From the NCBI RefSeq assembly GCF_008326305.1, contig NZ_BIXY01000006.1:1-64000 (forward strand): DNA of 64,000 nt. Direction: 5' to 3'. The first letter of the stretch is position 1. Each line of letters begins with the position of its first letter. Of this stretch, positions 33,396 through 64,000 are shown one piece after another. Position numbers and translations under genes: made by a program. This stretch comes from Dictyobacter arantiisoli (GTDB lineage: Bacteria; Chloroflexota; Ktedonobacteria; Ktedonobacterales; Ktedonobacteraceae). The notes under the pieces are model-generated. The model worked only from the letters and a program-made list of their open reading frames with translations, was not told the origin of the DNA and did no database searches.

Positions 33396-33481
33396 AATTG
33401 TTTCATACATGAAAGGTAGGCAATGAGCCAGCTCACTATCCATCCATCCTCATTGTCCTCCCCTGTCCATGCAGCCAGAAA

Positions 33482-36035: not shown

Positions 36036-36057
36036 TTTCTACATCATAGAGATAAAC

Positions 36058-38871: not shown

Positions 38872-38931
38872 GCCGTCTTTTCTCCTTTTCTGCATCCTTA
38901 GCCATAAAACGTTTTTCTATAAATATCAGTA

Positions 38932-42528: not shown

Positions 42529-42891
42529 GAGTAGGATGCTGAAATTCCCAAAGTTTCTAACTCTATAACTCCCAGGACAGCAATAAATTTTCTATTAATA
42601 AAACATCCTTCTGCATTTCTTTTACCCAATGCATAGAAAATTACTTGAAGGTAATAGGATTCGCGCTTTCCTATCATCCAGCTATATTGAACTTGACAAC
42701 CCTATTAGTTTACCTTAAAATAATAATGTGCAAAAAAATCATAAGCTAAATGTCATGATTAATTTCTCTCTTAGGACTTAATAGCTTGTGTTTATTTTAT
42801 AGCCAAAAAAAACCATAAGCCCTTTCATACATGAGGTAGATAAGAAAAATGGGCAATGAAGCTGCTAGAGAAATGCACGAAAGGACAACAA
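42529..42891. other. Gap before the AT-like gene
   Basis: About 330-360 AT-rich bases. Nothing recognisable beyond a possible second promoter; no clear terminator is present, so read-through from the hydrolase gene is possible. Confidence 0.3.
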
Positions 42892-43869: not shown

Positions 43870-43877
43870 GATTGAAC

Positions 43878-46178: not shown

Positions 46179-46981
46179 CTGTAGCTACGCAACTGGAATT
46201 TGTCGCTTATGAGCCAGAAACATCTACGGAAACGCCGCCTCTCTTGTTTGTTCACGGTGGTTCTCACGCCGCCTGGTGCTGGAGAGAGCATTTCCTTCCC
46301 TATTTCGCTGCCGCTGGCTTTCCTTCTTATGCTCTAAGCTTTCGTGGACATGGTGAAAGCTCCGGCTATGAACAGGTCGCATCCTATGTCCTGGATGACT
46401 ATGTGGAAGATGTTCTTCAAATCCTCACAAAGATCCAGCAAGCTCCAGTGCTGATTGGACATTCTCTTGGGGGTGCGGTGGTACAAAAGGTCTGGCAGCA
46501 GCATCCCGATAAGCTCAAAGCAGTGGTACTCATGGCCTCTAGTCCACCTGATGGAATGACACTGGAGTGGCTTAAGGTTCTCTTTAAACGTTTTAAAGCT
46601 ATTTACCAAATGAATCTATTCAATCTCGGCAAAATTGAACATTTTCCAGCTCGGGCTCGCGATCTGTTTTTCTCTTCAGATTTGCCAGTTGAGCAAAAAG
46701 AGCAGTATACCAATCTTCTGCAGCGTGAGTCAATTAAAGCGGGGCAGGCGATGATTCAAAAAACTATCGATCCGCGTTCCATGGATACAACCATTCCGCT
46801 GCTAGTCCTTGGCTCACGAAAGGATCAGTTTTTATCTGAAAGAGTGGCGCAAAAAGTTGCCAGAACATACAAAGTTACGCCGGTAATCTTTGATACTCTG
46901 TGTCACGATATGATGTTAGACACGCAATGGCCCATAGTTGCCGAGGCCATCCTGAAATTTTTGCAGACATCTGTAGCTTAA
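46175..46981 (+). CDS. Alpha/beta hydrolase in PKS operon
   Basis: A 268-residue alpha/beta-fold hydrolase. The oxyanion region is LLFVHGGSHAAWCWREHF, the nucleophile Ser is in IGHSLGGAVVQ, the acid is probably the Asp of LVLGSRKDQFLSE, and the His is in DTLCHDMMLDTQ. It starts with GTG overlapping the AT-ER stop codon (GTGA), so it is translationally coupled. Possible roles are a type II thioesterase, product release, or a tailoring (de)esterification; sequence alone does not choose. Confidence 0.85.
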   Translation: MTVATQLEFVAYEPETSTETPPLLFVHGGSHAAWCWREHFLPYFAAAGFPSYALSFRGHGESSGYEQVASYVLDDYVEDVLQILTKIQQAPVLIGHSLGGAVVQKVWQQHPDKLKAVVLMASSPPDGMTLEWLKVLFKRFKAIYQMNLFNLGKIEHFPARARDLFFSSDLPVEQKEQYTNLLQRESIKAGQAMIQKTIDPRSMDTTIPLLVLGSRKDQFLSERVAQKVARTYKVTPVIFDTLCHDMMLDTQWPIVAEAILKFLQTSVA

Positions 46982-46999: not shown

Positions 47000-47821
47000 A
47001 TGACGCGAGAAGGCTCCTATCACGTTCAAAGTATTGGTAGTAATGTCGAAATCGAAATTAAACGTTTGCAAGCGCAGGTCGAGCTGTTTTGGCCGAACGA
47101 GTTGAAGCATTATAGAGAGTTTGGCTTGAGCGATGGGATGTCTGTGGTAGAGCTGGGAGCTGGACCAGGATTTATGATTGATAAAATTGCCGAACGTTTC
47201 CCGCGGTGCCAGCTCACTGCCCTGGAGGTTGATCCCTTACTGGTCGAATACGCAAAAAATTACCTGACCCAAAAAAACAGGCAGGATTGCAGGGTTATTC
47301 AAGGATCTATTATGGCAACTGGGCTGGCCGAGAATTCATTCGATTTTGCGCTAATCAGGATGGTGCTTGAACATTTGCCTGATATAGAGGGAGCAATTCG
47401 AGAAGTGTTACGGATCTTAAAACCTGGTGGGAAAGCAGTTTTCGTTGATAATGATTTTGAGATGCATATTATGACTTATCCACATATACCCGAACTACGC
47501 GAACTCTATGATGCCTATTGCCAGGCGCGCTCCAACGAAGGGGGCAGCCCTAAAATTGGCCGGGAATTACCAGTGCTCTTAAAAAAGGGGGGATTTTCTC
47601 GAGTGGATTTTGATGTTGTCAGCGCCCATAGCGATATTGTAGGCGATGAGATGTTTTTTCGCTCTGAGGGAATCGGTATTCCATCAAAATTGGTCACTGA
47701 GGGCTATCTGTCGAGTAAAACGCTGGGAAAGATTTCTGTGGGATGGCGTAATATGGTCAAGAACAAAGACCATGCGATTATTCGGCAAATCTATCTAGCT
47801 GCTGGCGAGAAAAAGCGCTAG
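47000..47821 (+). CDS. Class I SAM-dependent methyltransferase
   Basis: A 273-residue Rossmann-fold methyltransferase. Motif I is VVELGAGPGFMIDKIAERFP, the acidic residue of motif II is in LTALEVDPLLVEYAK, and the motif IV region is FDFALIRMVLEHLPDIEGA, followed by LRILKPGGKAVFVDNDFE. This is a general O/N/C-methyltransferase type. Within the PKS operon it may methylate the polyketide at oxygen or carbon. GGAG lies about 12 bases before the ATG. The next gene begins 8 bases after its stop. Confidence 0.85.
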   Translation: MTREGSYHVQSIGSNVEIEIKRLQAQVELFWPNELKHYREFGLSDGMSVVELGAGPGFMIDKIAERFPRCQLTALEVDPLLVEYAKNYLTQKNRQDCRVIQGSIMATGLAENSFDFALIRMVLEHLPDIEGAIREVLRILKPGGKAVFVDNDFEMHIMTYPHIPELRELYDAYCQARSNEGGSPKIGRELPVLLKKGGFSRVDFDVVSAHSDIVGDEMFFRSEGIGIPSKLVTEGYLSSKTLGKISVGWRNMVKNKDHAIIRQIYLAAGEKKR

Positions 47822-47828: not shown

Positions 47829-50800
47829 ATGTGTTGCGTGAAAAAGGCGAATTCTCGTGTTCATTTCGAGCAGGTTTTACAAACGCTGCAAACAGCTACA
47901 GCAAGCGTGCTACAGGTGCCCGAAGCCTCTCTCTCCACACAGATCAGCATTATCGATCAAGGGATGAGCTCTCTGCTGGCAGTGGAATTTATCGAAATAC
48001 TCAATCAACGCCTGGGGACACAACTGGGAGTAGAGGTGATCTTTGATTATCCAGATCTCGAACACTTAGCCGCTCACGTTGCCAGCCAGCTTCCCGAAAT
48101 ATCACGCACAAAGGCGGTGAGTCACGAAAACAAGCGCAAAGGGAAACGCAGCCGTCAGGATAAAGGCTCACAAGTCACAATTGAAGTCAGGGTAAAAGAA
48201 ATCATTGCGGAACTTCTACAAGTTTCTGCTGACACACTAGATGTGGAGAAAAACTTTGTCGACCTGGGAATGAGCTCTCTCCTGGCGGTCGATATGGTTG
48301 AGGCAATCAATCAGCATCTGGGTCTGCATCTAGAGGTTGAGGTGATCTTTGAATATCAGAGTATCGCCACTATCGTTGATCATATACGTCCACTCATTGA
48401 ATCAGATGTTCCAGGCACTCCTCAAGATATCATCTCTACACCTGACATAGATAGCGCCTCACCCGATCCTGCTTCAGAGCAACGGAGTGGGGATATCGCG
48501 ATCATTGGCATTTCAGGGCAATTTGCAGGCTCCACCACACTGGAAGAATTCTGGGAACACCTGCAGGCTGGTGACAACTGTATTCGCGAGATTAATCGTG
48601 AAGACTGGCAAGAGCAACGCTATTATGATCCCCATCCAGACAAAAAAAATGCCTCTATCAGTAAATGGGGAGGCTTGCTTGATGCAATCGACAAATTTGA
48701 TGCCGCCTTCTTTCATATCTCTCCAGCAGAAGCAGAGAGAATGGATCCACAACAGCGCTTATTTTTACAAGAAGCATTTAAGGCTATTGAAGATGGCGGA
48801 TATTCACAGGAACAGCTCTCTGGTCAGAAAATAGGCGTCTTTGTGGGTGGACGGAACTCAGAGTATAAAAGTAAACGTCTCGACGACGATCCTACCGCAC
48901 AGACGTTTCTGGGCAACGAGATGTCCATTTTAGCTTCTCGCCTCTCATATTTCTTTAACTGGCATGGACCCAGTTATACAATCGATACTGCCTGTTCCTC
49001 TTCTCTGGTGGCAATTCATCTGGCATGTGAGAGCATTCGTCGACACGAGTCAAGTATGGCACTGGCAGGTGGGGTTTTTCTCATGCCTACGCCAGAATTT
49101 TTGGTGCTATCATCAAAGGCTGGTATGCTATCACCGGATGGCACATGTAATACATTCGATAATAGCGCAAATGGGATGGTCCTTGGAGAAGGAGTGGGCA
49201 CCCTGCTATTAAAACGCCTTGAAGAAGCTATTCACGATGGTGATGTCATTCATGGTGTGATTAAGGGCTCGGCAATAAATCAATCGGGCAAAACCAACGG
49301 CATTACGGCTCCAAGTGTCAGTTCTCAAAAAGAACTACTCATTGAAGCTTATACTAATGCAGCCATTTCACCAGCAAGCATCTCCTATGTTGAAGCCCAT
49401 GGAACAGGAACCAAACTTGGCGACTCAATCGAGGTCAAAGCGCTCAATGAGACCTTCCACCTCTATACAGATCAGAGTGCCTTCTGTATTCTGGGTTCGC
49501 ATAAACCAAATTTCGGACATGCAACGCTGGTAGCCGGGTGCGCCGGTGTTTTTAAAGTGTTACTGGCAATGCGGCATAAACAGATCCCTCCTACCATTAG
49601 CATAAAAAAGGTCAATGAATATATCAATATGGATGGGAGCCCATTCATATTCAATCGTGAAACACTCGCCTGGCAGCGCCATGATGGGCAACCATTACGC
49701 GCAGGTGTCAGTTCTTTTGGCTCTAATGGCACTAACTGCCATCTGATTATTGAAGAGGCTCCTCAACAAGATGATCGCTACTCTTCATCTCCCCTCCCTG
49801 CTTATCTCTTTCCATTCTCAGCCCAAACGCCCGCAGCACTGCGACAAAAAATCAGTATGATGGCCCACTGGCTCGAAAAAACAACCACACCGCCATCCCC
49901 ACAAAATGTGGCTTATACTTTATTGGTAGGGCGCAGCCATTTTCCTCACCGTTCTGCTTTTATCGCCAGTAACCTGGCTGAACTCCAACAGGCTATCGCG
50001 ACATTTCTACAAACGGGATCAACTCAGGCATATTTTGACAGCGCGGACCAGGCGATGATGCCCACAATCAATGCGGATTTACCACTTTCTGGCGAGCAAT
50101 TGATCAACGAGTTAGCCAATGGGATACAGTTACCAGCTCACACCTATCAAGAAAAACTCACTGCCCTGGCAAGTTACTACCTCAAAGGATACAATCTCCC
50201 CTGGAAAAACCTCTATCAATACGTGAATTGCACCCGCATCTCACTCCCTTCTTATCCATTTTCTGGAGAACGCTACTGGATCAAGGAAAATACAAAGGCT
50301 CACACAGAACAAGAGTACATAGAACCGATCAAGACTTCATTGCTTCCTTCTGTAATCCTTGAGCTCCAATCGCAAAAGGGGCAACCTCCCACACAGGATC
50401 TTACGCCAGAAGGAGGCCTACAAGTACGAGGAATGAATAAGATTTTAGCGAAATTCCTCTGGGCCTCTCTGTACACTGGTACCATCTTTACGGAGAGCGC
50501 ACAAACTGAAGCTGAATTGCAGGCCAGAGCCAGCTTATCATTCCCCTATAATCACTGGTTCGCGGAAAGCCTGCGATTTTTATGCCGTGAGCAGTACCTT
50601 ACCTACGATGGACAAAAATATGCGATCAATACTCACGCACGCTTCAATGAAACACTCCTCTGGCAGGAGTGGAACGATCAGAAAAAATACTGGCAGGCCA
50701 ATCCAGCAACAGCGGCGCAGACTAATCTGGTCGAGGCGATGTTACGTGCACTCCCTGCTATTCTCGCTGGCAAGCAACGAGCTACCGATAGTATGTTCCC

Positions 50801-53800
50801 TTCTTCTTCAATGCAATTAGTAGAGGGCATTTATAAAAATAATCCGGTAGCAGATTATTTCAATACAACACTTGCTGAGACACTGCTGACCTATGTACAG
50901 CTACGCTTACGACAGGATCCAAACGCCCACATTCGCATCCTTGAAATTGGAGCTGGAACGGGAGGGAATAGCGAGGTTATATTCCAGCGACTCAAACCAT
51001 ATCACACCGCTATCCAGGAATATTGCTATACCGATATCTCCCAAAGCTTCTTGCTCTACGCAAAAAAAATGTATGGGCCAGCTAATCCTTATTTGAACTA
51101 TCGGCTCTTTGATGTTGAGACACCGATTACCAGACAGGGCTTTACACCACAAACATACGATATTGTTGTTGCCGTCAATGTGCTGCACGCAACCAGGCAG
51201 ATTGACCAGACACTGCGCAACGTCAAAGCGCTTTTAAAACCCAATGGATTACTCCTGCTCAATGAAATCAACCAGAATTCTCTTTTCCTCCATCTTACCT
51301 TTGGCCTGTTAGAGGGTTGGTGGCGTTTCACTGATGGAGAAGTGCGCATACAAGGATGCCCGGCACTGACACCACAAAACTGGCAAACAGCCTTACAGGC
51401 AGAAGGATTTCGCGCAACATTTTTCCCGGCTCAGGCTGCGCATGAATCAGGTCAACAGATCATCGTTGCCGAAAGCGATGGTGTCCTGCTCGCTCAGGAA
51501 TTAGCCAACATCGATCATAAAACATCACAGCAGCATGAGAAAAAAAGCCAACTGGTAAACACAGCCCAATCGTCGTTTACGCAGAGCCAGATCCTTGCAT
51601 CTACACTCACAGATCAGAAAATAGAGGAGTATGTTCGCGGCATCATTGTCGATCATCTTGCCAGCACATTAGAGATAGCCATTACAACTATTGATACCGA
51701 TATCCCATTGCGCGAGATGCAAGTCGACTCAATCCTTGGAGTCACACTGGTACAAAACATTAATCAATCTCTTGCACTCACGCTGGAAACAACGATTCTC
51801 TTTGACTATCGCTCTGTCAATGAGTTAACTGCCTATATTATGTCGCATCATAAGGACCGTGTAATCTCAACCTTTACAGCCAGCCAATCGCAACCCCCAC
51901 TTACTACCAGTGCTACACCAGCGACGCCCCTTGATACACATAGCACGCCAATAAGATTTGTACCAGAGCCGGCCTTCACTCCAACTGACGATACAACCTC
52001 CACATCAGCCTTGAATCGGGAGCCAATCGCTATCATTGGAATGAGTGGTCGCTTTGGTGGTTGTGACACGGTCGATGATTTATGGGATAAGCTGGCACAA
52101 GGTGCAAATCTCGTTGAAAAGGTTACACGCTGGGATCTTTCACGCTATTATTCAGATCAGACGGACTATTGCAATTCTGGCAGCTTTATCAATGGTATCG
52201 ACCAATTTGATCCACTTTTCTTCAATATCTCTGGGCTTGAAGCAACCTACATGGACCCACAGCAACGTCTCTTTCTAGAGGAGGCCTGGAAAGCATTGGA
52301 GGACGCTGGCTATGCGGCGAGTGCACAGGGGCGTCTTTGTGGGGTTTATGTTGGATGTGAAAAAGGTGACTACCAGCACTTGCTACCCCAGGATGCACCT
52401 GCGCAAGCATTCTGGGGTAATCTTGGCTCATTAATTCCTGCCCGCATCGCTTATTATCTGGATCTTCAAGGTCCGGCTATTGCCGTAGATAGTGCCTGTT
52501 CCAGCTCTCTAGTTGCCATCCACCTGGCCTGTCAGAGCCTATGGACCCGAGAAACAGAGATGGCTCTGGCCGGTGGTGTCTTTATTCACTCCACATCTGC
52601 TTTCTATCTGGCTGCCAATCGAGCTGATATGCTCTCATCAACCGGGCATTGCTATACGTTTGATGAACGGGCCGATGGGATGGTGCCCGGTGAGGCCGTG
52701 GGCGTGGTCATACTCAAACGGCTTAGCGCTGCACTTGCCGATGGTGACCATATCTATGCAACTATTCGCGGTTCCGGTATCAATCAAGATGGAGCCAGCA
52801 ATGGCATCACCGCTCCTAGTCTCAAGTCACAGGAACGGCTGGAGCGGTATGTCTATGATACATTCCAGATAGATCCTGCGGAGATTCAGATGGTGGAGGC
52901 CCATGGCACGGGTACCAGACTGGGCGATCCTATCGAGTATCAGGCGATTAGTCGTGCCTTCCGGGCCTATACAAGCAAACAAGCCTATTGTGCAATCGGC
53001 TCAATCAAGACCAATCTTGGCCATACGCAGATTGCGGCTGGCATAACCGGTCTGATCAAACTCTTACTCTCACTGAAACATCGGCAGATGCCACCATCTC
53101 TGCATTTTCAGTCTGGGAATCGCGCCATCCAGTTCGAGGATAGCCCATTCTATGTCAATACCCACTTGAGAGACTGGGAAACCCGATCTGGCACTCCACG
53201 ACGTGCAGCTCTGAGCTCCTTCGGGGCCAGTGGTACCAATGCACATATGGTCATCGAAGAAGCACCTGCATCTGAGCGCTATCATCGGGAAAAACCCGGC
53301 TATTTGATTGTCTTATCAGCTCGCTCATCGGAACAATTACAGCAACAGGCGGCACAACTTATCGCCTTTTGTCGACGCGAACCGGAGAGCGACTGCGGTA
53401 ATATAAGCTATACACTGCTGCTGGGCAGAAAACATTTTAAGCATCGACTGGCCTGCGTGGTAAGCACGGTTTCTGAATTGATTACACTGCTTACGGATTG
53501 GCTGGAGAAAGGGAAAACCTCACAGCAGTTGCTGGTCTCTGAGGTGCGTGAGGGTGAACGACGAGAACAACTTTCCTTAAAACGCTATGGCAATGAGTGT
53601 ATCCAACGGTGTCGTGAGGATATATTAGCTAATAGCTATCTGGAACAACTCGCTGTGGTAGCTGATCTATATGTACAGGCCTACACGCTCGACTTTGATC
53701 AGCTATTCACCAGCGATCAATATCCTGATCACTATACGCGCATGGCACTGCCAACCTATCCCTTCGCTCGTGAAAGCTACTGGGTACCGGAGAAAACGGA

Positions 53801-56800
53801 TATCTCTTCTACAGCATATATATCTCCTCCACCTGTATACGCGGAACATCCAGAATATCCAGCCAACAAGATGGAAGATCGAAACATCATCGGCGAACAC
53901 ACTATTGGTATGCCATCGTTTCCTCCTTTGCAGGGAACACTCACCCTCGCACCGGTCTGGACACCTGCATCGTTCCAGCCAGGACCACGCTGGCCCACGC
54001 CTACTGAGCATGTTGTCTTATTAGGCGATCATGAACAGCTTCATACTACGCTCGAACGCTACTACACGCATGTGCAACATCTGAAGCTTGCTTCGGATGC
54101 CAGTCAGGCTAGCATTGCTCACGCATTAACCTCCTTTGGCGCTATCGATCACATTTTCTGGCTGGCTCCAACCAGCCAGCCACAACCCTTGACCGAAGAG
54201 GCAATCATTACCGACCAGAAGCAAGGAGTACTGCAAATCTTCCGCTTGATTAAGGCGCTCCTGGAGGCAGGCTATAGCAGCAAAACTCTCTCATGGACAA
54301 TTATCACACGCCAGAGTCAGGCAATCAGCAACCATGAAGCGCTAAACCCAATCCATGCCAGCATCCACGGATTAATTGGAGCATTGGCAAAAGAATATGC
54401 TCACTGGCAAATTCGGCTACTTGATCTTCCTGCCGAGGGAGAATGGCCTGTGAATGAGATCTTCAGCCTCCCGGCAGACCCACAGGGGAATACCTGGGTC
54501 TGGCGCAATCAGGAATGGTATCGCCAACTATTACTTCCCGAGCAGCATGTTCAGCCAACGCAAAGTCCTTACCGTACCGGGGGGGTCTATGTTGTGATTG
54601 GTGGTGCTGGTGGTATCGGAGAGGTCTGGAGCGAGCATATGCTTCGCACATATCAGGCTCAGATTATCTGGATCGGTCGTCGCCCTTTAAACCAGCATAT
54701 TCAAAATAAAATTGATCGCCTGGCTGCCTCAGGTCCAACGCCGCTCTATATCTCAGCTGACGCAAGCAATCTGCAATCTCTGCAACAAGCCTATAGCCGG
54801 ATCAAACAACGCTATCCACATATCCATGGAATTATTCACTCAGCTATCGTGCTACTGGACCAGAGTCTGGCCAGAATGAGCGAAGAACGCTTCCTGGCAA
54901 CACTTTCAGCCAAGGTAGATATAAGTGTGAGAATGGCTCAGGTCTTTCAGCAAGAAAGACTGGATTTTGTCCTCTTCTTCTCTTCCATCAATTCCTTTAT
55001 GCGTCAGGCCGGTCAAAGTAACTATGCAGCAGGCTCTACCTTTGAAGATGCCTTTGCGCATCAACTGGCGAAAGACTGGTCATGCAATGTACGTGTTATC
55101 AACTGGGGATATTGGGGAGAAGTCGGAGTCGTAGCCTCTCAAGCGTATCAAGAACGTATGGCAGCAACAGGTTTGGACTCAATAGACACGCCCGAAGCAA
55201 TCGCATCACTGGATAACTTGCTTACCGGACCGCTGCGACAACTGGCGCTGGTGAAAACGACCCGCCCTGCTGCTTTGGAGAATGTGAGCCAGACAGAATT
55301 TCTGATTCACTATGGAGTGAACCCGGTCTCACTCCTTGATTACTTACAACATACAGTACGTGAAGACTACACGGTACCGCTGGCTTTCATGACGACGCAT
55401 CAGCCAGAGATCGATGATCTAACAAGCTATGTAAGTATTCTCTTGCAAGAAATAGCTTCGCAAGTCCTACAGGTGCCGGTAGAAGAGGTTGATGCAGATC
55501 TTGATCTGCATGAGTACGGTTGGGACCAGTTTAAGCTCAATACCTGGCTTGATCTTCTCAATCAGAAGTATGAACTGTCACTAACCCCAGACCTGCTACT
55601 TGAGTACGCAACACTACGCAAGATAGCAGCATATCTGATACAAACAGATGCAGCACGCTGGAACAAAGAGGTTCCGACAACCTCAACGAATCCACTCAAG
55701 CACACTATGAGCACTGCATCCAGCATGGACATACTACTCTACAAGCTCCTCTGGGCACAGTTACTGGCCCTGGGATGGTTTACACAACAGCCCACGGTAC
55801 TCACGGATCTCCAGGCACATGTAATTCTATCCTATCTACGCGACCGCTGGCTACCGGAAAGCCTCAGGCTGCTGGCAACTCAACACTACCTCGACTTTGA
55901 TGGTTCCTTGTGTCGACCTATCAATACACATCCCGGTGAGATCCGTCAACTCTGGCAGGAATGGGAACGGCAAAAAAGCTTCTGGTTGCAGGATGCGACG
56001 CTGCATGCTCGCGCAGTTCTGGCCGAGATGATGCTTACTACCTTACCTGCCCTACTAACGGGAAAACAAACGGCCACAGAAATCATGTTCCCTCACGGAT
56101 CGTTGGAACTGGTCGAAGCCATCTACCAGGGCAACCCGCTGGCTGATTATTACAATGAGACCCTGGCAAAGATTGTAGAAGCATATATAAAGGAACGGCT
56201 CAAACACGATCCTACGGCACGGCTACGCATCCTGGAAATCGGAGCAGGCACAGGAGCAACAACTACCAGGGTTCTGAAAAAACTTCAACCCTATCAGTTT
56301 GCACTCCAGGAATACTGCTATAGTGATCTTTCCAAAGCCTTTTTACTGCATGCAGAGCAAGCTTATGGCGCGCACTATCCCTATATGAACTATCAGATTT
56401 TCAATGTGGAGCAACCTGTTGCAGCTCAGGGAATTGCTGCTGGTACCTATGATCTGGTGATCGCCACCAATGTACTTCATGCGACCCGTGATATACGACA
56501 AACATTGCGCAATGCGAAAGCAGCCTTACGCAGCGGCGGACTTCTCCTCATCAACGAGATCACCGAGCATACGATCTGGTCTCATCTCACCTTTGGTCTG
56601 CTTGAAGGATGGTGGCGCTTTGATGATCCAAGATTACGTATCCAGGGTAGCGCATGTCTCTCTTTACAGACCTGGCAGATGCTCCTGGAAAGTGAAGGAT
56701 TCCGCTCAATCGACGTGCCAACCGCAGAAATACAGATACAGGAACAGCATATTATCATCGCTGAGAGTAATGGAGTTGCCCGCCAGCAACATCCAACACC

Positions 56801-59800
56801 TGTTGCTTCCATCGCCTTACATCAGGAGACATTGAAACAGCCAGAAACCCGACAATCGCCAACGCCACACTTGAAGCCCGGCGCTACGACGCAAGAAATG
56901 TTACGCGAGAAAAGCACTGCTTATATAAAACAGCTGATCGCCAATACGCTGAAATTCCCAACAGCAAAGATCCATCCCGATGCGCCTTTAGAAGAGTATG
57001 GGATTGATTCACTCCTGATAATCCAGCTTACTACCAGATTAAGCCAACTCTTTCCGCAAATCAGTAGCACTGTCTTCTTTGAATATCGCACCATCTCGGC
57101 CCTGGTGGAACATCTTCTTCAGGCACATACAGCCACATTGATGACGCTGGTCGGGTTGTCAGAATTGTCAGAATTGTCAGAGCCTCCCATAGCTGAAGAG
57201 AAACCGACAACACAAACAAGCACTCAAACCATTCCGGCTAGCGTAGCACCCACAGACAAGTATCCAGAGCGCTCTTTAGCGCGTGAGGCAACGCCTGTAG
57301 CGGAAAGTCAGCATGCTCCGCATGTACAGGATATTGCCATCATCGGGCTTTCCGGGCGCTATCCAGGCGCAAGAAATATGCAGGAGTTCTGGCAATTGCT
57401 CCGAAATGGCTCCAGCAGCATTACTGAAATTCCTGCTGATCGCTGGGATTGGCAGCAGTATTTTGCGGAAGCACGAGGAAAAAAAGGCACAAGCTATACA
57501 AAATGGGGAGGATTTCTGAAGGATGTAGATGCCTTCGATCCCTTATTCTTTCATATCTCACCTAAAGAGGCTGAACAAATGGACCCACAGGAGCGTCTCT
57601 TCCTGGAAGAAGCCTATGCCAGCATCGAAGACGCGGGCTATACCCCGGCAAACTTGTCTGCAAAAGGGAGAGTTGGCGTGTTCGTTGGCGTCACAAACGC
57701 CAATTATCCTTCAGGGGCTAGCTACTGGTCCATTGCAAATCGGGTCTCCTATCTCTTAGATTTCCATGGCCCGAGCCTGGCCGTCGATACAGCTTGCTCT
57801 TCATCTCTTACGGCTATTCATCTGGCACTCGAAAGCTTGTATAGCGGCACGAGTACCTGCGCTATTGCTGGTGGAGTAAATTTAATCGTCGATCCAGCAC
57901 ACTACATCAAGTTATCAGAGCTAACAATGCTCTCGTCGGGCGAGCAGTGTCGGGCCTTTGGTGATCAAGCTGATGGTTTTGTGGATGGTGAAGGAGTAGG
58001 AGCAATTGTACTGAAACCGTTGCCGCAGGCTATTGCCGATGGCGATCATATCTATGGTGTCCTTAAGGGAAGCATGCTCAATGCTGGAGGTAAAACCAAT
58101 GGCTATACGGTTCCTAATCCTCATGCTCAGGGTGATCTCGTACGAGCAGCGCTGGAGAGAGCTGGCATTAATGCTCGTACAATCTCTTATATAGAGGCAC
58201 ATGGAACCGGAACAACTCTCGGCGATCCGATTGAGATTACAGGACTGACACGCGCATTCACACCAGATACAACTGATACACAATTCTGTGCCCTGGGTTC
58301 AGTTAAATCTAATATTGGACATACTGAGAGTGCAGCGGGCATCGCGGGTTTGAGTAAAGTCCTGTTACAACTCAAATATGCTCAATACGCTCCTTCACTA
58401 CATTCACAAGTGCTAAATCCTTATATCAACTTCAATACAACTCCATTCACAGTTCAACAGGAACTCGCTGAATGGAAGCGTCCGCTGATCAAAAGCGATG
58501 GGCAGATACGGGAATATCCACGTCGCGCCGGTATCTCCTCCTTTGGTGCCGGGGGGGCCAACGCTCATATACTTGTCGAGGAATATATTCCTGCGCAACA
58601 GACTCTGCCATCATTTAGTATTACGTCCCTCAATCCAGCAATAATTGTTTTATCAGCCAAAAGCGCACAGCAATTACAGGAACAAGCACAAAGATTATTA
58701 GCCTCTATTCAAGAGCAAGCTGTTACCGCATCTGATCTGGCTGCAATCGCCTACACGCTTCAAGTAGGGCGCGAGGCCATGGAGGAACGGCTAGCCTTGC
58801 TGGTACACTCATTGGCAGATTTACAGGAAAAATTGCAGGCATTTGTGTCTGGGAAAGAGGATATTGCTGATCTCTATCGCGGTCAAGTCAAGCAGAACCA
58901 GGAAACTATCACGCTCTTTGCAGATGATGAACTACAGATTGCGGTAAAACGCTGGATTGAAGCACGAAAATATACAAAAATCGCAGATCTATGGGCCAGA
59001 GGGCTAACATTCGATTGGAACTATTTCTATGATCAACACAAACCTGGGCGCATCAGCCTGCCAACCTATCCTTTCGCCAGGGAGCGCTATTGGATGTCCA
59101 GAGATGAGATGCCAGCAGCCGGATCAAGTATTGCTGCTGTCAGTCATGTGAGCGAGAGTTCCAATCAAACTCAACTGCCCACCAACACAGAACTTCTGGT
59201 CTTTGAAGAGACCTGGCAAGAAGCTACAGCAGGACTTTCTGCTACTCCTGGTCTCTGGACACCGCGCACTCTGGTCTGCTTCCTTTCACAACCCCAATCC
59301 CAGCAGGAGATCACTACTGCTCTGCGTGTATTTGCACCAAACTGTACCATTATCTTCCTCTCACAGGGTTTATCTTTTGCACAATCCTCTCCCAACCACT
59401 ATACGCTCGATCACACGCTCCCCTCGTCCTATCAGGAGGCATTGCAAACATTGCAAAATCTATATGGGCACATCGACACAATTTTTTATCTCTTTCCGTT
59501 AGAAGATCCCTCGTGCCGACGTGATCCTGCCTCCCTACTCTCACTCATTCAGGCACTACCAGTCACACCAACACATACAACTACACGCCTGCTCTGGGCC
59601 TCCTCCTTCTCCTCTGATCTGGAGCAGGCAACCCTGGAAGCATGGATCGGTCTGGAACGTTCGCTGGGTCTGATTCTGCCTCAACTTCAACTCTCTGGAC
59701 TCCTTGCTCGCACTTCAGAGCAAGAACATTCGTTACCTATTGCACGCTGGGCTCAGTGGCTCTGGCAGGCGCTGCAAATGCCCAAAGCAGAGAGCCTTCT

Positions 59801-62800
59801 TTATACAGACACAGCTACGCCTAAATATTTGCGAACGCAACCAGTCCTTCTGCAACCAACCACAGCTAGCCTTTTACGTCAGGGAGGCACCTATTTGATC
59901 ACAGGCGGTCTGGGCGGACTTGGTGTACTCTTCGCTACCTATCTCGCTCGCATGTATTCGGCGCGCATACTTTTACTGGGTCGCTCATCACTAGATGAAT
60001 CCCGACAAGCCGCACTCGCCTCTATACAGGCTGCAGGCGGCGAGGTACTCTATCTACAGGCAGATGTCTGCAATGCCATCCAGCTACGAGAAGCACTTCT
60101 CCAGGGTAAAGAGCGCTTTGGCCCATTGCATGGTGTGATTCATGCTGCGGGACTGTCTGGTCATGAGACGATCTTACAGAAGAGCCATGCCTCCTTCCGG
60201 CACACTCTGGCTGCTAAAATCCAGGGCACGCTCCTTCTCGACGAGTTACTGGCACAGGAACCATTGGACTTTACCTGTTACTTCTCTTCTTCTGCAGCCA
60301 TCCTCGGTGACTTTGGCGCGGGCGACTATGCTGTAGGCAATCGTTTCTTGATAAGCTATGGTAGCTTACGCGAGCAATGGCGGCAGCAGGGAAAACGGAG
60401 CGGGAAGACTCTGGTAATCAATTGGCCTCTCTGGAGAGAGGGTGGAATGAGGATGGATGATGCAGAGCAGACACAGATGTATCTGGCCTCCAGCGGACAA
60501 CGCTATCTGGAAACTGCAGAGGGACTGCGCATCTTCGAACAATTACTCACTCAGGCTGGCACCCAGTATCTGATCCTGGCAGGTCAAACAGATCGCATCA
60601 CACACTTTCTCGGACTGACAGATGATAAGCCTGCTCCCACTCATGAAGGCATACACCATACCCATCATAACGGCACTGGCAGGCAGGCATATATGAAAGG
60701 CTGGACAGTTGAACAATGTCTGGAATGGGATCTCAGCACTCTGATAGGTCAGGTGCTCAAACTGGGACGAGAGCGCCTGGATCAAACAGCAAACCTGACG
60801 GATTTCGGCTTTGATTCTATCAGTCTGGCTGAGTTTGCCAGAGTGCTTTCTCAACACTATACATTGAATATCACTCCAGCACTATTCTTCGGCTATCCAA
60901 CCCTGCGAAGACTGCTACACTACTTCCTTTCTGAGCATGCTGCAGCCATTCATACATTTTATGAAGAAGAATCCACGCCTGTCGCATCCATCACCACACC
61001 GGCGGCGCCCGCACCCGCTGCAACGTTACATCCATCTCATAAGATTTACGAGCAGAGTAGTGAGTCAACTCTATCCGAGCCCATCGCGATTATTGGAATG
61101 AGCGGGCGTTTCCCTCAGGCACGCAATATTGACGAATTCTGGAACACGCTAAGTGAGGGTCAGGATGTGATTAGCGCACCACCAGTTGAGCGCTTCTCAC
61201 AACAGAAGCAAAACTGGCGCGGCGGCTGGATTCCAGGGGTACGGGAGTTTGATCCAGCTTTCTTTGAAATATCTCCACGCGAAGCCGAGTTTATGGATCC
61301 ACGCCAACGTCTTCTTTTGCAGGAATCCTGGAACGCTCTAGAAGATGCAGGCTATGGTTCTCAACAGATCACTAACAGTAAAATTGCAATGTTTGTCGGA
61401 GTGGAGAGCGGCGACTATCAACTTCTAACGGGGACACAGACGCCCATTACCTCTAATCACGATGGCATTCTGGCTGCTCGTCTGGCGTATTTCCTCAATT
61501 TACACGGACCGGTAATGTCTATCAACACCGCCTGCTCATCTGGACTGGTGGCCGCTCATCAGGCTTGCTTGAGCCTGCGCAACCAGGAGTGCGATACCGC
61601 TATCGCCGCCGGAGTGAGTCTTCTCCTGGCAAGCGAAACAATGGAAGCAATGGATCACGCGGGAATGCTCTCTGAGGATGGGCGCTGCTATGCGTTCGAC
61701 AGACGTGCTAATGGGTTGGTGCCCGGTGAGGCCGTTGCGGTTGTTGTCCTCAAGCGGCTTTCACAGGCCATAGCTGATGGCGATCCCATCTATGCTCTCA
61801 TTAAGGGTAGCGGCATTAACTACGATGGTAAAACCAACGGCATTACCGCACCAGGCCTGATAGCGCAAACAGATTTGCTGCAAACTATCTATGATCGTTA
61901 TCAGATCAATCCAGAACAGATCAGCTATATTATTACTCATGGCACAGGGACCAGATTGGGAGATCCCATTGAGATTCAGGCTCTATCTGATGCCTTCAAA
62001 AAATATACCCATCGTGAAGGCTACTGTGCATTGACCTCGACTAAGACAAATGTGGGTCATACCTTTGCAGCCTCAGGTCTGGTCAGTCTTATCGCACTGG
62101 TCCAGGCGCTGCGTCATAATACTATTCCCGCCAGTTTGCATTGTGAAGAGGAAAACGATTTTATCAACTGGAAACAAAGCCCATTCTATATCAATAAAAC
62201 GGCCCGACCCTGGACTCCCCCTCTTTCGCAGCCAGCTCTCGGTGCGGTCAGCGCTTTTGGTGTCAGCGGAACCAACGCTCACATGGTGGTGGAGCGTTAC
62301 GATGTGGAGCGTTACGATTATGCATCAGTTACACGACATACAAATCCACATCCTGTCTCGCTATTACTTTTCTCGGCACGCACCAGTGAGGAACTAATCG
62401 CTAAAATCACTGCCATGCTCACTTTCTTACAAGCCCATAATGCACAGGATTTCGATCTTACTGCTCTCAGCTATACATTAATGATAGGGCGCCAGCATTT
62501 CGCTCAGCGCTGTGCCATGGTAGTACAGGATTATGAGGATGCTCTCCAGGCACTACAGCGGGCGGCACAAATGGAGGCGTGGCCAGGCATATTAAGAGGA
62601 AATGTAGCTCGCGATTTTAGCAGCCAGAAAGCACTGGAAACTTTTGCGCAAGATCTGCTGGTACAATGCCGCTCGCTACACACAAATAAGCAAAAATATC
62701 AGGAAAATCTGCACGCGCTAGCTGATCTGTACTGTCAGGGATATACACTGCCCTGGCAAGAACTCTTCACACCAGAGACGCCAGAGCGGCTTCACTTACC

Positions 62801-64000
62801 AACGTATCCGTTTGCTAGAAACCAGTACTGGATACAGGTACGGGAGAATCGAACAGCCAACAACAAGCCAAAAGATACTTCAATACTCGAATCACCTATC
62901 GATCTTCAAGGCACCAGCACTTTCACCTTGCCGTCACTTATTCCTGCATCACAGATACACAACGGCGAAAAATCCGCAGTCCAACCACAGACAAAACCGC
63001 GGGAAATCGTTTTGAGTACCTTAACAACTGATCCTATAATCCCAATGCCCGAAGCAACAACTCGGCTTGAGCAAGGGAAAACAGTATTGCCACCGCTCGG
63101 ACTCACACCACAAGTTCAAAATGAACATCCATCACAAAATACAGCACAATTAAGCATGGAGGCTCCTGCCATGGATATGATAGAAACGTTGCAAGAGGAC
63201 CTGGCTCTTAGCCTGGCAGATATCCTCTATATGGAACGCAATGAAATTGACCTGGATAGAAAATTTGTCGAGTTGGGATTGGATTCAATCATTGGCGTGG
63301 AATGGATCAAAACGATCAATAAACAATACACTATGTCACTTACAGCCAGCCGCGTCTATGATTATCCTACGATCCGTGAATTTTCAGATTTTCTGGCCAG
63401 ACAAATCTCTAAGCAGGGGAAACAGCCAGCCGCCGCTGCCCCCCCATCACGTAGTGCCCCACCACCGGAGCCCGCACCATTAGAGTCTGAAATCAAACCA
63501 TCATCACGTATGATCCAAAGTTCGAATACTTCCAGCGCAGCCTGGACCAGCCCGAGCGAAAAACCACAGGTCCAGTTACTAACAGGCACTGAACAATCAC
63601 GCGAGGCCATTGCACAGCCACAGGAAGAAATCCTGCCAGCGCGCCTGGGAAATCCTCTTTTTCAGACCCGCTATCACTGTAAATGGAGCTACTACGCCGG
63701 TTCCATGGGAGATGGAGTAGCTTCGGTAGAGTTGGTTACCGCCTTAGGCAATCACGACCTTCTGGGTATTTTCGGCAGTGCTGGACTCCGTAGCGAGCAG
63801 GTTGCAGACCATCTGCAACGCATTCGTGCTCGACTCGCGCCAGATAAAATCTACGGCATGTGCTTGCTATCTAATTTTCATCATCCAGAAGAGGAACAAC
63901 GTCTGGTTGATTTATTCCTGAAATGGCAGGTTCCAGTTATCGAGGCCGCAGCATTTTCAGCGGTCACTGAGCCACTGGTCTACTTTAGAGTCAAAGGTCT
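47829..64000 (+). CDS. Giant trans-AT polyketide synthase (partial at window end)
   Basis: A single reading frame is open from the ATG at 47829 (AGGAAGG just upstream; GTG at 47838 possible) to the right edge: more than 5,390 codons, no stop seen, and it continues past 64000. Domains in order: ACP1 (Ser 48), ACP2 (Ser 150); KS1, C-methyltransferase, ACP3 (Ser 1301); KS2, KR, ACP4 (Gln 2567 instead of Ser), C-methyltransferase, ACP5 (Ser 3061); KS3, KR, ACP6 (Ser 4330); KS4, ACP7 (Ser 5153), then a PfaD-type ER. There is no AT domain after any KS; each KS is followed by the LPxYPFxRExYW linker of trans-AT systems. The malonyl supply should come from the AT-ER protein upstream. KS Cys and both His are intact in all four KSs. 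Confidence 0.95.
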   Translation, partial: MCCVKKANSRVHFEQVLQTLQTATASVLQVPEASLSTQISIIDQGMSSLLAVEFIEILNQRLGTQLGVEVIFDYPDLEHLAAHVASQLPEISRTKAVSHENKRKGKRSRQDKGSQVTIEVRVKEIIAELLQVSADTLDVEKNFVDLGMSSLLAVDMVEAINQHLGLHLEVEVIFEYQSIATIVDHIRPLIESDVPGTPQDIISTPDIDSASPDPASEQRSGDIAIIGISGQFAGSTTLEEFWEHLQAGDNCIREINREDWQEQRYYDPHPDKKNASISKWGGLLDAIDKFDAAFFHISPAEAERMDPQQRLFLQEAFKAIEDGGYSQEQLSGQKIGVFVGGRNSEYKSKRLDDDPTAQTFLGNEMSILASRLSYFFNWHGPSYTIDTACSSSLVAIHLACESIRRHESSMALAGGVFLMPTPEFLVLSSKAGMLSPDGTCNTFDNSANGMVLGEGVGTLLLKRLEEAIHDGDVIHGVIKGSAINQSGKTNGITAPSVSSQKELLIEAYTNAAISPASISYVEAHGTGTKLGDSIEVKALNETFHLYTDQSAFCILGSHKPNFGHATLVAGCAGVFKVLLAMRHKQIPPTISIKKVNEYINMDGSPFIFNRETLAWQRHDGQPLRAGVSSFGSNGTNCHLIIEEAPQQDDRYSSSPLPAYLFPFSAQTPAALRQKISMMAHWLEKTTTPPSPQNVAYTLLVGRSHFPHRSAFIASNLAELQQAIATFLQTGSTQAYFDSADQAMMPTINADLPLSGEQLINELANGIQLPAHTYQEKLTALASYYLKGYNLPWKNLYQYVNCTRISLPSYPFSGERYWIKENTKAHTEQEYIEPIKTSLLPSVILELQSQKGQPPTQDLTPEGGLQVRGMNKILAKFLWASLYTGTIFTESAQTEAELQARASLSFPYNHWFAESLRFLCREQYLTYDGQKYAINTHARFNETLLWQEWNDQKKYWQANPATAAQTNLVEAMLRALPAILAGKQRATDSMFPSSSMQLVEGIYKNNPVADYFNTTLAETLLTYVQLRLRQDPNAHIRILEIGAGTGGNSEVIFQRLKPYHTAIQEYCYTDISQSFLLYAKKMYGPANPYLNYRLFDVETPITRQGFTPQTYDIVVAVNVLHATRQIDQTLRNVKALLKPNGLLLLNEINQNSLFLHLTFGLLEGWWRFTDGEVRIQGCPALTPQNWQTALQAEGFRATFFPAQAAHESGQQIIVAESDGVLLAQELANIDHKTSQQHEKKSQLVNTAQSSFTQSQILASTLTDQKIEEYVRGIIVDHLASTLEIAITTIDTDIPLREMQVDSILGVTLVQNINQSLALTLETTILFDYRSVNELTAYIMSHHKDRVISTFTASQSQPPLTTSATPATPLDTHSTPIRFVPEPAFTPTDDTTSTSALNREPIAIIGMSGRFGGCDTVDDLWDKLAQGANLVEKVTRWDLSRYYSDQTDYCNSGSFINGIDQFDPLFFNISGLEATYMDPQQRLFLEEAWKALEDAGYAASAQGRLCGVYVGCEKGDYQHLLPQDAPAQAFWGNLGSLIPARIAYYLDLQGPAIAVDSACSSSLVAIHLACQSLWTRETEMALAGGVFIHSTSAFYLAANRADMLSSTGHCYTFDERADGMVPGEAVGVVILKRLSAALADGDHIYATIRGSGINQDGASNGITAPSLKSQERLERYVYDTFQIDPAEIQMVEAHGTGTRLGDPIEYQAISRAFRAYTSKQAYCAIGSIKTNLGHTQIAAGITGLIKLLLSLKHRQMPPSLHFQSGNRAIQFEDSPFYVNTHLRDWETRSGTPRRAALSSFGASGTNAHMVIEEAPASERYHREKPGYLIVLSARSSEQLQQQAAQLIAFCRREPESDCGNISYTLLLGRKHFKHRLACVVSTVSELITLLTDWLEKGKTSQQLLVSEVREGERREQLSLKRYGNECIQRCREDILANSYLEQLAVVADLYVQAYTLDFDQLFTSDQYPDHYTRMALPTYPFARESYWVPEKTDISSTAYISPPPVYAEHPEYPANKMEDRNIIGEHTIGMPSFPPLQGTLTLAPVWTPASFQPGPRWPTPTEHVVLLGDHEQLHTTLERYYTHVQHLKLASDASQASIAHALTSFGAIDHIFWLAPTSQPQPLTEEAIITDQKQGVLQIFRLIKALLEAGYSSKTLSWTIITRQSQAISNHEALNPIHASIHGLIGALAKEYAHWQIRLLDLPAEGEWPVNEIFSLPADPQGNTWVWRNQEWYRQLLLPEQHVQPTQSPYRTGGVYVVIGGAGGIGEVWSEHMLRTYQAQIIWIGRRPLNQHIQNKIDRLAASGPTPLYISADASNLQSLQQAYSRIKQRYPHIHGIIHSAIVLLDQSLARMSEERFLATLSAKVDISVRMAQVFQQERLDFVLFFSSINSFMRQAGQSNYAAGSTFEDAFAHQLAKDWSCNVRVINWGYWGEVGVVASQAYQERMAATGLDSIDTPEAIASLDNLLTGPLRQLALVKTTRPAALENVSQTEFLIHYGVNPVSLLDYLQHTVREDYTVPLAFMTTHQPEIDDLTSYVSILLQEIASQVLQVPVEEVDADLDLHEYGWDQFKLNTWLDLLNQKYELSLTPDLLLEYATLRKIAAYLIQTDAARWNKEVPTTSTNPLKHTMSTASSMDILLYKLLWAQLLALGWFTQQPTVLTDLQAHVILSYLRDRWLPESLRLLATQHYLDFDGSLCRPINTHPGEIRQLWQEWERQKSFWLQDATLHARAVLAEMMLTTLPALLTGKQTATEIMFPHGSLELVEAIYQGNPLADYYNETLAKIVEAYIKERLKHDPTARLRILEIGAGTGATTTRVLKKLQPYQFALQEYCYSDLSKAFLLHAEQAYGAHYPYMNYQIFNVEQPVAAQGIAAGTYDLVIATNVLHATRDIRQTLRNAKAALRSGGLLLINEITEHTIWSHLTFGLLEGWWRFDDPRLRIQGSACLSLQTWQMLLESEGFRSIDVPTAEIQIQEQHIIIAESNGVARQQHPTPVASIALHQETLKQPETRQSPTPHLKPGATTQEMLREKSTAYIKQLIANTLKFPTAKIHPDAPLEEYGIDSLLIIQLTTRLSQLFPQISSTVFFEYRTISALVEHLLQAHTATLMTLVGLSELSELSEPPIAEEKPTTQTSTQTIPASVAPTDKYPERSLAREATPVAESQHAPHVQDIAIIGLSGRYPGARNMQEFWQLLRNGSSSITEIPADRWDWQQYFAEARGKKGTSYTKWGGFLKDVDAFDPLFFHISPKEAEQMDPQERLFLEEAYASIEDAGYTPANLSAKGRVGVFVGVTNANYPSGASYWSIANRVSYLLDFHGPSLAVDTACSSSLTAIHLALESLYSGTSTCAIAGGVNLIVDPAHYIKLSELTMLSSGEQCRAFGDQADGFVDGEGVGAIVLKPLPQAIADGDHIYGVLKGSMLNAGGKTNGYTVPNPHAQGDLVRAALERAGINARTISYIEAHGTGTTLGDPIEITGLTRAFTPDTTDTQFCALGSVKSNIGHTESAAGIAGLSKVLLQLKYAQYAPSLHSQVLNPYINFNTTPFTVQQELAEWKRPLIKSDGQIREYPRRAGISSFGAGGANAHILVEEYIPAQQTLPSFSITSLNPAIIVLSAKSAQQLQEQAQRLLASIQEQAVTASDLAAIAYTLQVGREAMEERLALLVHSLADLQEKLQAFVSGKEDIADLYRGQVKQNQETITLFADDELQIAVKRWIEARKYTKIADLWARGLTFDWNYFYDQHKPGRISLPTYPFARERYWMSRDEMPAAGSSIAAVSHVSESSNQTQLPTNTELLVFEETWQEATAGLSATPGLWTPRTLVCFLSQPQSQQEITTALRVFAPNCTIIFLSQGLSFAQSSPNHYTLDHTLPSSYQEALQTLQNLYGHIDTIFYLFPLEDPSCRRDPASLLSLIQALPVTPTHTTTRLLWASSFSSDLEQATLEAWIGLERSLGLILPQLQLSGLLARTSEQEHSLPIARWAQWLWQALQMPKAESLLYTDTATPKYLRTQPVLLQPTTASLLRQGGTYLITGGLGGLGVLFATYLARMYSARILLLGRSSLDESRQAALASIQAAGGEVLYLQADVCNAIQLREALLQGKERFGPLHGVIHAAGLSGHETILQKSHASFRHTLAAKIQGTLLLDELLAQEPLDFTCYFSSSAAILGDFGAGDYAVGNRFLISYGSLREQWRQQGKRSGKTLVINWPLWREGGMRMDDAEQTQMYLASSGQRYLETAEGLRIFEQLLTQAGTQYLILAGQTDRITHFLGLTDDKPAPTHEGIHHTHHNGTGRQAYMKGWTVEQCLEWDLSTLIGQVLKLGRERLDQTANLTDFGFDSISLAEFARVLSQHYTLNITPALFFGYPTLRRLLHYFLSEHAAAIHTFYEEESTPVASITTPAAPAPAATLHPSHKIYEQSSESTLSEPIAIIGMSGRFPQARNIDEFWNTLSEGQDVISAPPVERFSQQKQNWRGGWIPGVREFDPAFFEISPREAEFMDPRQRLLLQESWNALEDAGYGSQQITNSKIAMFVGVESGDYQLLTGTQTPITSNHDGILAARLAYFLNLHGPVMSINTACSSGLVAAHQACLSLRNQECDTAIAAGVSLLLASETMEAMDHAGMLSEDGRCYAFDRRANGLVPGEAVAVVVLKRLSQAIADGDPIYALIKGSGINYDGKTNGITAPGLIAQTDLLQTIYDRYQINPEQISYIITHGTGTRLGDPIEIQALSDAFKKYTHREGYCALTSTKTNVGHTFAASGLVSLIALVQALRHNTIPASLHCEEENDFINWKQSPFYINKTARPWTPPLSQPALGAVSAFGVSGTNAHMVVERYDVERYDYASVTRHTNPHPVSLLLFSARTSEELIAKITAMLTFLQAHNAQDFDLTALSYTLMIGRQHFAQRCAMVVQDYEDALQALQRAAQMEAWPGILRGNVARDFSSQKALETFAQDLLVQCRSLHTNKQKYQENLHALADLYCQGYTLPWQELFTPETPERLHLPTYPFARNQYWIQVRENRTANNKPKDTSILESPIDLQGTSTFTLPSLIPASQIHNGEKSAVQPQTKPREIVLSTLTTDPIIPMPEATTRLEQGKTVLPPLGLTPQVQNEHPSQNTAQLSMEAPAMDMIETLQEDLALSLADILYMERNEIDLDRKFVELGLDSIIGVEWIKTINKQYTMSLTASRVYDYPTIREFSDFLARQISKQGKQPAAAAPPSRSAPPPEPAPLESEIKPSSRMIQSSNTSSAAWTSPSEKPQVQLLTGTEQSREAIAQPQEEILPARLGNPLFQTRYHCKWSYYAGSMGDGVASVELVTALGNHDLLGIFGSAGLRSEQVADHLQRIRARLAPDKIYGMCLLSNFHHPEEEQRLVDLFLKWQVPVIEAAAFSAVTEPLVYFRVKG
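47860..48400 (+). other. PKS domains: tandem ACP1-ACP2
   Basis: Two carrier domains with the same site (GMSSLLAVEF and GMSSLLAVDM), phosphopantetheine serines at 47970 and 48276. They are joined by a Lys/Arg-rich linker and stand at the very N-terminus with no preceding KS. They may receive a starter or a chain from another subunit. Confidence 0.9.
48492..51840 (+). other. PKS module A: KS1-MT-ACP3
   Basis: KS1 has the active-site Cys at 48993 (DTACSSSL) and His at 49398 (EAHGTGT) and 49518 (NFGH). Linker LPSYPFSGERYW is near 50,245. The C-methyltransferase (about 50,430-51,475) has ILEIGAGTGGNSEVI. ACP3 Ser is at 51729 (MQVDSILG). There is no KR, so an alpha-methyl-beta-keto product is predicted. 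Confidence 0.9.
52017..57125 (+). other. PKS module B: KS2-KR-ACP4(inactive)-MT-ACP5
   Basis: KS2 Cys is at 52497. KR (about 53,910-55,270) has VVIGGAGGIGE and the Ser/Tyr pair FFSSINSF and SNYAAGS. ACP4 (about 55,420-55,650) reads EYGWDQFKL, lacking the carrier Ser. The second C-methyltransferase (about 55,710-56,790) has ILEIGAGTGATTTRV. ACP5 Ser is at 57009 (EYGIDSLL). Predicted product: alpha-methyl-beta-hydroxy. Confidence 0.9.
57327..60930 (+). other. PKS module C: KS3-KR-ACP6
   Basis: KS3 Cys is at 57795 (VDTACSSSL). KR (about 59,180-60,600) has LITGGLGGLG and YFSSSAAILGDFGAGDYAVG. ACP6 Ser is at 60816 (DFGFDSIS). No DH is visible, so a beta-hydroxy product is predicted. Confidence 0.9.
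61077..64000 (+). other. PKS module D: KS4-ACP7-ER (partial)
   Basis: KS4 Cys is at 61533 (NTACSSGL); its first His motif reads ITHGTGT instead of EAHGTGT. There is no KR or DH, so a beta-keto thioester is predicted. ACP7 (Ser at 63285) reads GLDSIIGVEW with Trp six residues after the Ser, the flag of beta-branching ACPs. From about 63,640 a PfaD-like ER begins (YYAGSMGDGVASVELV, LGIFGSAGLRSEQV) and runs off the window. Confidence 0.85.

Follow-up and report, generated by a model that had tools for sequence, protein, structure and literature searches.

Dictyobacter arantiisoli in all likelihood carries a complete trans-AT PKS assembly line of the aurantinin (ART) type that has been rearranged and extended, and this is our best explanation for the large reading frame described below. 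The cluster is complete and occupies about 39–118 kb of a 119,964-bp contig that contains no N, in a genome of 7,209,578 bp in 256 contigs. The window, by which we mean the whole stretch of 64,000 nucleotides analysed, is bases 1-64000 of this contig, and contig positions beyond 64000 continue its numbering. The initial annotation had proposed one uninterrupted PKS frame of more than 16 kb and over 5,390 residues. Both the ORF listing and the translation agree with it, since from the ATG at 47829 to the end of the window there are 5,390 codons and no stop, and extension to the right into the rest of the contig meets a stop only at 70805, giving a protein (PksA) of 7,658 aa. A stop-free run of this length cannot be chance. 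PksA is the first of four giant trans-AT PKS proteins, with 15 KSs in total and 20,920 codons free of stops and frameshifts. The size of the protein is not remarkable, as giant single proteins are ordinary among trans-AT PKSs. The four proteins are the following:

47829..64000 in the window, on to 70805, + strand: PksA, first PKS protein, 7,658 aa
70831-81174: PksB, 3,447 aa
81176-101476: PksC, 6,766 aa
101516-110665: PksD, 3,049 aa

Domains were called by purpose-built HMMs and Pfam. Within the window the order is ACP-ACP, KS1-MT-ACP, KS2-KR-ACP-MT-ACP, KS3-KR-ACP, KS4-ACP-ER. The four KSs, two C-MTs, one inactive ACP, Trp-flagged ACP and ER after that ACP that had been read from the letters were thus all recovered with HMMs and motifs, and the protein contains no AT, the AT genes lying separately at 42856 and 43872. 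AT-less modules with a free-standing AT are what defines a trans-AT PKS. The features of PksA inside the window are:

47880..48386, + strand: two N-terminal loading ACPs (GMSS, GMSS)
48492..49748, + strand: KS1, in the clade of first KSs of art-like clusters, Cys-His-His intact
50826..51428, + strand: core of the module 1 C-methyltransferase
52023..53252, + strand: KS2, 76% to its tail paralogue KS14
53784..59093, + strand: inserted exchange unit, module 2/3 (KR, inactive ACP, MT, ACP, KS3), PksA aa about 1986-3755
55437..55637, + strand: inactive ACP, GWDQ, Ser to Gln, at aa ~2567
57330..58574, + strand: KS3, in one clade with KSs placed after MT modules (own KS8 and KS11, bacillaene KS9)
59886..60437, + strand: KR of module 3, no LDD-type Asp, 80% to the module 14 KR
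61080..62288, + strand: KS4, 81% to its paralogue KS15
63195..63395, + strand: Trp-flagged beta-branching ACP of module 4, GLDSIIGVEW
63612..64000, on to 64850, + strand: in-cis PfaD-type ER of module 4, best PDB match DfnA (4cw5)

Over the whole line the order is as follows, where ACP(dead) has lost its serine, ACPw carries the Trp flag DSxxxxxW of beta-branching acceptors and DH(Tyr) has Tyr at the catalytic His:

PksA: ACP-ACP; 1, KS-MT-ACP; 2, KS-KR-ACP(dead)-MT-ACP; 3, KS-KR-ACP; 4, KS-ACPw-ER; 5, KS-ACP(dead)-ACPw; 6, KS-DH
PksB: KR-ACP (rest of 6); 7, KS-DH-KR-MT-ACP; 8, KS-DH
PksC: ACP; 9, KS-DH-KR-ACP; 10, KS-DH-KR-MT-ACP; 11, KS-ACP; 12, KS-DH-KR-ACP; 13, KS-ACP(dead)
PksD: MT-ACP; 14, KS-DH(Tyr)-KR-ACP; 15, KS-ACPw-ACPw

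Trp-flagged ACPs are therefore found in modules 4, 5 and 15, MT domains in modules 1, 2, 7, 10 and 13, and the inactive DH in module 14, while modules 8 and 11 have no KR. The dead ACPs, with motifs GWDQ, GMDA and GFDQ (Ser to Gln or Ala in modules 2, 5 and 13), each precede an active ACP. The Cys-His-His triad is intact in all 15 KSs. Scored by the LDD rule, every KR keeps the Asp except those of modules 3 and 14.

The comparison with ART draws on the text of two papers (PMC8302727, PMC11425284) and on uncharacterised relatives. For the art cluster, that of B. subtilis fmb60, the papers report that Art28 methylates malonyl-ACP at the start, that Art9 strips the ester and that the methyls at C-5 and C-7 come from two consecutive beta-branch modules. 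Behind the tail come KS, HMGS, ECH1, ECH2 and Art21, the last being an ECH-TE in which Gln replaces the catalytic His. The D. arantiisoli line has in common with it the malonyl-ACP O-MT/esterase pair, a loading ACP followed by a KS1-MT-ACP first module, two consecutive beta-branch modules near the head (here 4 and 5), an MT-ACP tail that ends in twin Trp-flagged ACPs, and an inactive DH with Tyr for His. KS1 groups with KS1 of three art-like clusters, those of the Bacilli genome G572, T. daqus and G. dipsosauri (support 1.0). The Trp flags of modules 4, 5 and 15 correspond to those of ART modules 3, 4 and 15. The genes upstream of PksA are listed here:

36058..37428, - strand: cytochrome P450 (Pfam p450, E 4e-80), cluster membership uncertain
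37648..38895, - strand: cytochrome P450 (Pfam p450), probable tailoring enzyme
39062..40492, - strand: MATE efflux pump (Pfam MatE), probable exporter
41029..41250, - strand: AcpK-like free donor ACP of the beta-branching cassette (Pfam PP-binding)
41842..42528, + strand: metallo-beta-lactamase-fold hydrolase, PksB-like (Pfam Lactamase_B)
42856..43869, + strand: stand-alone AT homologue, GYSL for GHSL, malonyl-binding Arg replaced by Gln
43872..46178, + strand: AT-ER fusion, PksE-like (fabD and pfaD_fam matches), GHSLG and Arg present
46175..46981, + strand: alpha/beta hydrolase, a methyl esterase resembling Art9, 46-55% to its counterparts in three art-like clusters
47000..47821, + strand: SAM methyltransferase, putative Art28-like malonyl-ACP O-methyltransferase

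The O-methyltransferase is 61-64% identical to its homologues in T. daqus (61%), G. dipsosauri and G572. Thd235 of T. daqus H-18 is a malonyl-ACP O-MT in vitro (PMC8302727), and we infer that the gene on the T. daqus contig is Thd235. The esterase found no comparable match in the bacillaene cluster. The stand-alone AT homologue has PksD (8avz) as its best PDB match (E 1.5e-85, compared with 2.8e-23 for PksC) and, judged from its residues, is most likely an acyl hydrolase of the PksD/PedC type and no malonyl transferase. That role would fall to the AT-ER protein (57-64% to Bacillota AT-ER proteins), predicted to combine a malonyl transferase with a trans PfaD-type ER. Identities to the art-like and bacillaene clusters are 47-57% for the metallo-beta-lactamase-fold hydrolase; the free ACP reaches 55-59% with the free ACPs of the T. 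daqus, G593 (a second Bacilli genome) and bacillaene clusters, and the MATE gene 45-51% with those of the art-like clusters of G572, T. daqus and G. dipsosauri. The P450 at 37648..38895 is 33-36% identical to P450s of the G572 art-like and bacillaene clusters; in the P450 at 36058..37428 no match to the canonical heme-binding motif FxxGx[RH]xCxG was found. A GT28/EryCIII-like glycosyltransferase, a PMT-family mannosyltransferase and the two P450s adjoin the cluster on the minus strand (window 30660-38895). Some 12 kb upstream of the cluster lie an AAA ATPase (26419-27300), a Mu-type transposase (27293-28339) and an SDR gene nearby, a group (26419-29324) that is possibly the trace of a mobile element.

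Downstream of PksD, the cassette runs in the order of art17-art21 (KS-HMGS-ECH1-ECH2-ECHQ-TE):

from 110910: decarboxylating KS, active-site Cys replaced (SASASG)
from 112164: HMGS
from 113423: ECH1
from 114187: ECH2
114994-117018: ECH-TE fusion (ECHQ-TE)
117097: small ORF, no Pfam match
117672-118277: RfaH/LoaP-like NusG paralogue at the cluster end

With the donor ACP and the Trp-flagged acceptor ACPs, the beta-branching set is complete. At the cluster end, the NusG paralogue has a counterpart in art1 of the aurantinin cluster, likewise an antiterminator. The ECH of the fusion reads MQEQTF where ECH2 enzymes have MHEKTF, and this Gln for the PksI/ECH2 His is the ECHQ signature. Twenty-three ECHQ-TE proteins have been reported, one of them, Dar43, from Chloroflexi; in the B. 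subtilis art21-ech mutant, Dar43 brought aurantinin production back to some level and did not block auritriacids (PMC11425284). Among 29 genomes of the family Ktedonobacteraceae, D. arantiisoli alone has an ECH-TE, so that Dar43 is very probably the ECH-TE gene of the present cluster. The family, and probably this cluster, is thus already on record through Dar43; its product is not.

The TE half of the fusion carries GGYALGG where three relatives have GGYSLGG, the nucleophile Ser being replaced by Ala (codon GCG at contig 116362-116364). In an aurantinin producer proper, this part would be a type II TE with the catalytic Ser. The natural change is the same as that in the laboratory mutant art21-te S390A, in which aurantinin was lowered but not abolished. 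Together with the serines lost from ACPs of modules 2, 5 and 13 and the KR-less modules 8 and 11, it could mark a decaying cluster from which no product is made. We consider this unlikely, as the PKS codons contain neither stop nor frameshift, every dead ACP is followed by an active one, all KS triads are intact, and the S390A mutant still gave low-level ART.

The line is nevertheless not that of ART. It has an extra methylating module in its head, absent from ART, and its KS1 is full length with an intact triad, whereas that of ART is truncated. The inactive DH sits in module 14 and not, as in ART, in module 13 between KS13 and MT13; module 13 is here KS-ACP(dead), then MT-ACP. MTs at modules 1, 2, 7, 10 and 13 contrast with those at 1, 7, 9 and 13 only in ART, and the MTs and KRs of the polyene part are arranged otherwise. 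Neither an Art2-type succinyl transferase nor an Art4-like C-methyltransferase was identified in the cluster. A product identical to a known aurantinin, or only trivially different from one, with the same scaffold and minor tailoring, is very improbable: flanking genes, head, tail and cassette are shared with art-type clusters and ART can form in B. subtilis with the help of Dar43, but the extra module 2 with its own MT, the MTs at modules 7 and 10, the KR-less modules 8 and 11, the DH(Tyr) in another module and the failure to find an Art4-like C-methyltransferase all oppose it. Where the initial annotation could name no pathway, the family can now be named, that of the ART lines of Bacillota, while its statement still holds that the module order fits no characterised line compared; as this order is absent from the characterised pathways compared, the unknown compound that it had thought possible is likely.

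The closest relative is the cluster of G572 (contig C15, ~59-129 kb). The KS tree covered 113 KSs from about a dozen clusters, and the genome searches are samples; 9 of the 15 KSs (KS1, 2, 4, 5, 6, 12, 13, 14 and 15) pair in order with G572 KSs at 63-78% identity. The same upstream order of AT, AT-ER, esterase and O-MT leads there into a PksA of ACP-ACP-KS-MT-ACP-KS-KR-ACP-KS-ACPw-ACPw-ER-KS-ACPw-ACPw-KS-DH. Head, tail, HMGS, two ECHs, ECH-TE and an in-cis ER after Trp-flagged ACPs (64%) are shared. G572 differs in having no inserted head unit, twin Trp-flagged ACPs in module 3, an additional later beta-branch module (KS6-ACPw), a different polyene part and no DH(Tyr) in the KS13 module. In G572 C15 the last PKS gene is directly followed by that for HMGS, and a decarboxylating KS gene was looked for but not found. 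Thermoactinomyces daqus H-18 and Gracilibacillus dipsosauri DD1 share the O-MT, the esterase, the trimodule ACP-KS-MT-ACP-KS-KR-ACP-KS-ACPw-ACPw, the cassette and the ECH-TE, with the G. dipsosauri copy split between contigs. In T. daqus the trimodule is the sole PKS found on the contig, whereas D. arantiisoli has it twice, as head and as tail. Contig 4 of Bacillus inaquosorum, searched as a possible art relative, gave just one isolated ECH besides an AT-ER and a KR-like match. Among 29 genomes of the family, queries with ACP-ER and ECH-TE found no conserved orthologous cluster, and a literature search on Ktedonobacter trans-AT PKSs returned nothing direct.

Head and tail are paralogous, and this is what makes the insertion in the head visible. 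KS2, KR3, ACP3 and KS4 are 76-81% identical to KS14, KR14, ACP14 and KS15. In blocks of 40 residues, head and tail are 55-90% identical up to PksA aa 2000; identity is absent from there to ~3780 and then returns at 50-90% save for short linkers. The left break lies directly past LPTYPFARESYW (aa 1974-1985) and the right one directly past LPTYPFARERYW (aa 3744-3755), so that the insert is bounded on both sides by LPTYPF motifs. For trans-AT PKSs, LPTYPF has been proposed as the place at which units recombine and can be engineered (PMC11260071), and the position of the breaks makes KR-ACP(dead)-MT-ACP-KS3 one exchange unit in the sense of that work. Because G572, T. daqus and G. dipsosauri all have the uninserted KS-KR-ACP form, insertion is a simpler reading than loss. 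Among the targets compared, the best match of the unit is a D. vulcani bacillaene-type unit (55% over 1,436 aa). As the T. daqus PKS is one trimodule, the D. arantiisoli line appears to be two copies of such a trimodule flanking a polyene part. We put forward, tentatively, that head and tail form a natural before/after pair, in which the head trimodule gained one LPTYPF-bounded unit, the product became longer by a methyl-bearing unit and the ECHQ-TE without its TE serine is purely a programming factor. On this reading the donor would probably be a bacillaene-like unit.

The inserted unit resembles bacillaene-type units, and a congener, Dictyobacter G008 (probably D. vulcani), has a bacillaene-like trans-AT PKS cluster (C2, ~464-540 kb) with nearly the domain order of B. 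spizizenii pks. In the genome table of PMC13289182 a size of 7,209,578 bp stands under D. vulcani, PMC12453558 gives 7.42 Mb, and the entry looks swapped. The bacillaene PKSs of B. spizizenii and G008 share with our cluster the PksB-like hydrolase, the AT-ER, the acyl hydrolase, the HMGS cassette and related polyene KSs; of all targets compared, none comes nearer to the inserted unit than their KR-MT-ACP-KS unit, and KS3, KS8 and KS11 also resemble bacillaene-type units. They differ in loading, module order and release, and have no O-MT and no ECH-TE. Since the domain order differs, a bacillaene-type line as in the sister species is refuted to the point of being extremely improbable; that most KSs pair with G572 and that the O-MT/esterase pair and ECH-TE are present here also speak against it, and this identity was rejected on domain order and KS pairing. 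Difficidin- and macrolactin-type lines were compared through single domains at most.

The in-cis ER of module 4 is 64% identical to an ER of G572 and 61% to one of G593, where the ER begins the next PKS protein and has three Trp-flagged ACPs immediately before it. Other matches to the module 4 ACP-ER, namely AT-ER proteins and discrete ERs, reach 35-45%. The three in-cis ERs form one clade (support 1.0), as do the KSs that follow them (support 1.0). In 400 Chloroflexota genomes, with the top three candidates per genome scored, no close in-cis ER relative was found, nor did the literature searched on PfaD-type ERs yield any direct report. The module 4 ER retains the GGHT motif; in FabK and GbnE the His of this motif takes part in catalysis. 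An ER after an ACP is not unusual, as the active in-cis ACP-ER didomain of gladiolin module 1 (PMC10921412) and the two Bacilli relatives show, and its novelty was rejected on both grounds. In both gladiolin module 1 and module 4 the ER is fused downstream of the ACP. The gladiolin ER acts within its own module on an ordinary enoyl thioester, whereas here the ER follows a beta-branching ACP, and it may reduce the beta-branch. In compound 9, an auritriacid derived from ART, H-5 is coupled to 5-CH3, which indicates saturation of the first beta-branch of ART; this would be explained by an ER at the corresponding module.

Read from gene order, domain order and active-site residues, biosynthesis may proceed as follows. 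The malonyl transferase of the AT-ER would load malonate on the N-terminal ACPs, and the Art28-like enzyme would convert malonyl-ACP into its methyl ester. Module 1 would C-methylate the starter, module 2, the inserted exchange unit, would add a methyl-bearing hydroxyl unit, and module 3 a beta-hydroxyl. At module 4 the HMGS cassette would introduce a beta-methyl branch, which the fused ER would then saturate, and a second branch, at module 5, would stay unreduced. Modules 6-12 would make a polyene with two more C-methyl groups, although with modules 8 and 11 lacking a KR this part is not readable with confidence. Modules 13-15 would repeat the logic of the head (MT, KR, beta-branch), like ART modules 13-15, the ECHQ-TE protein would act on the last modules, and the Art9-like esterase would strip the ester at the end. 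The product is best predicted to be a polyene polycarboxylic acid, akin to aurantinin or auritriacid, with a longer head.

Within this explanation there is a considerable, slightly less than even chance that the line makes one chain in the manner of auritriacids, running straight through module 15 with release as a di- or tri-acid and no succinyl-primed second chain. The residues of the sole free AT homologue are those of an acyl hydrolase, and it clusters with that of G572, apart from the T. daqus/G. dipsosauri AT pair; the triads of KS1 to KS15 are all intact; and Dar43 swapped into B. subtilis left auritriacid formation unblocked. Against it, the ECH keeps the Gln for His, and Dar43 restored some ART production, suggesting that its own line is still reprogrammed.

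Aurantinins, antibiotics of Bacillus, are active against MRSA, and their line combines an unusual protecting-group start with a reprogramming factor. A complete, rearranged aurantinin-type line in Chloroflexota, here in a bacterium from soil, is a target for isolating a new member. The ECHQ-TE without its Ser could serve as a natural experiment on whether the ECHQ domain suffices for programming, and a single-unit insertion pinned to LPTYPF by head/tail paralogy would be a natural precedent for the exchange-site rule (PMC11260071). If head and tail are indeed the before/after pair proposed above, the compound made would represent a novel Chloroflexota antibiotic scaffold.
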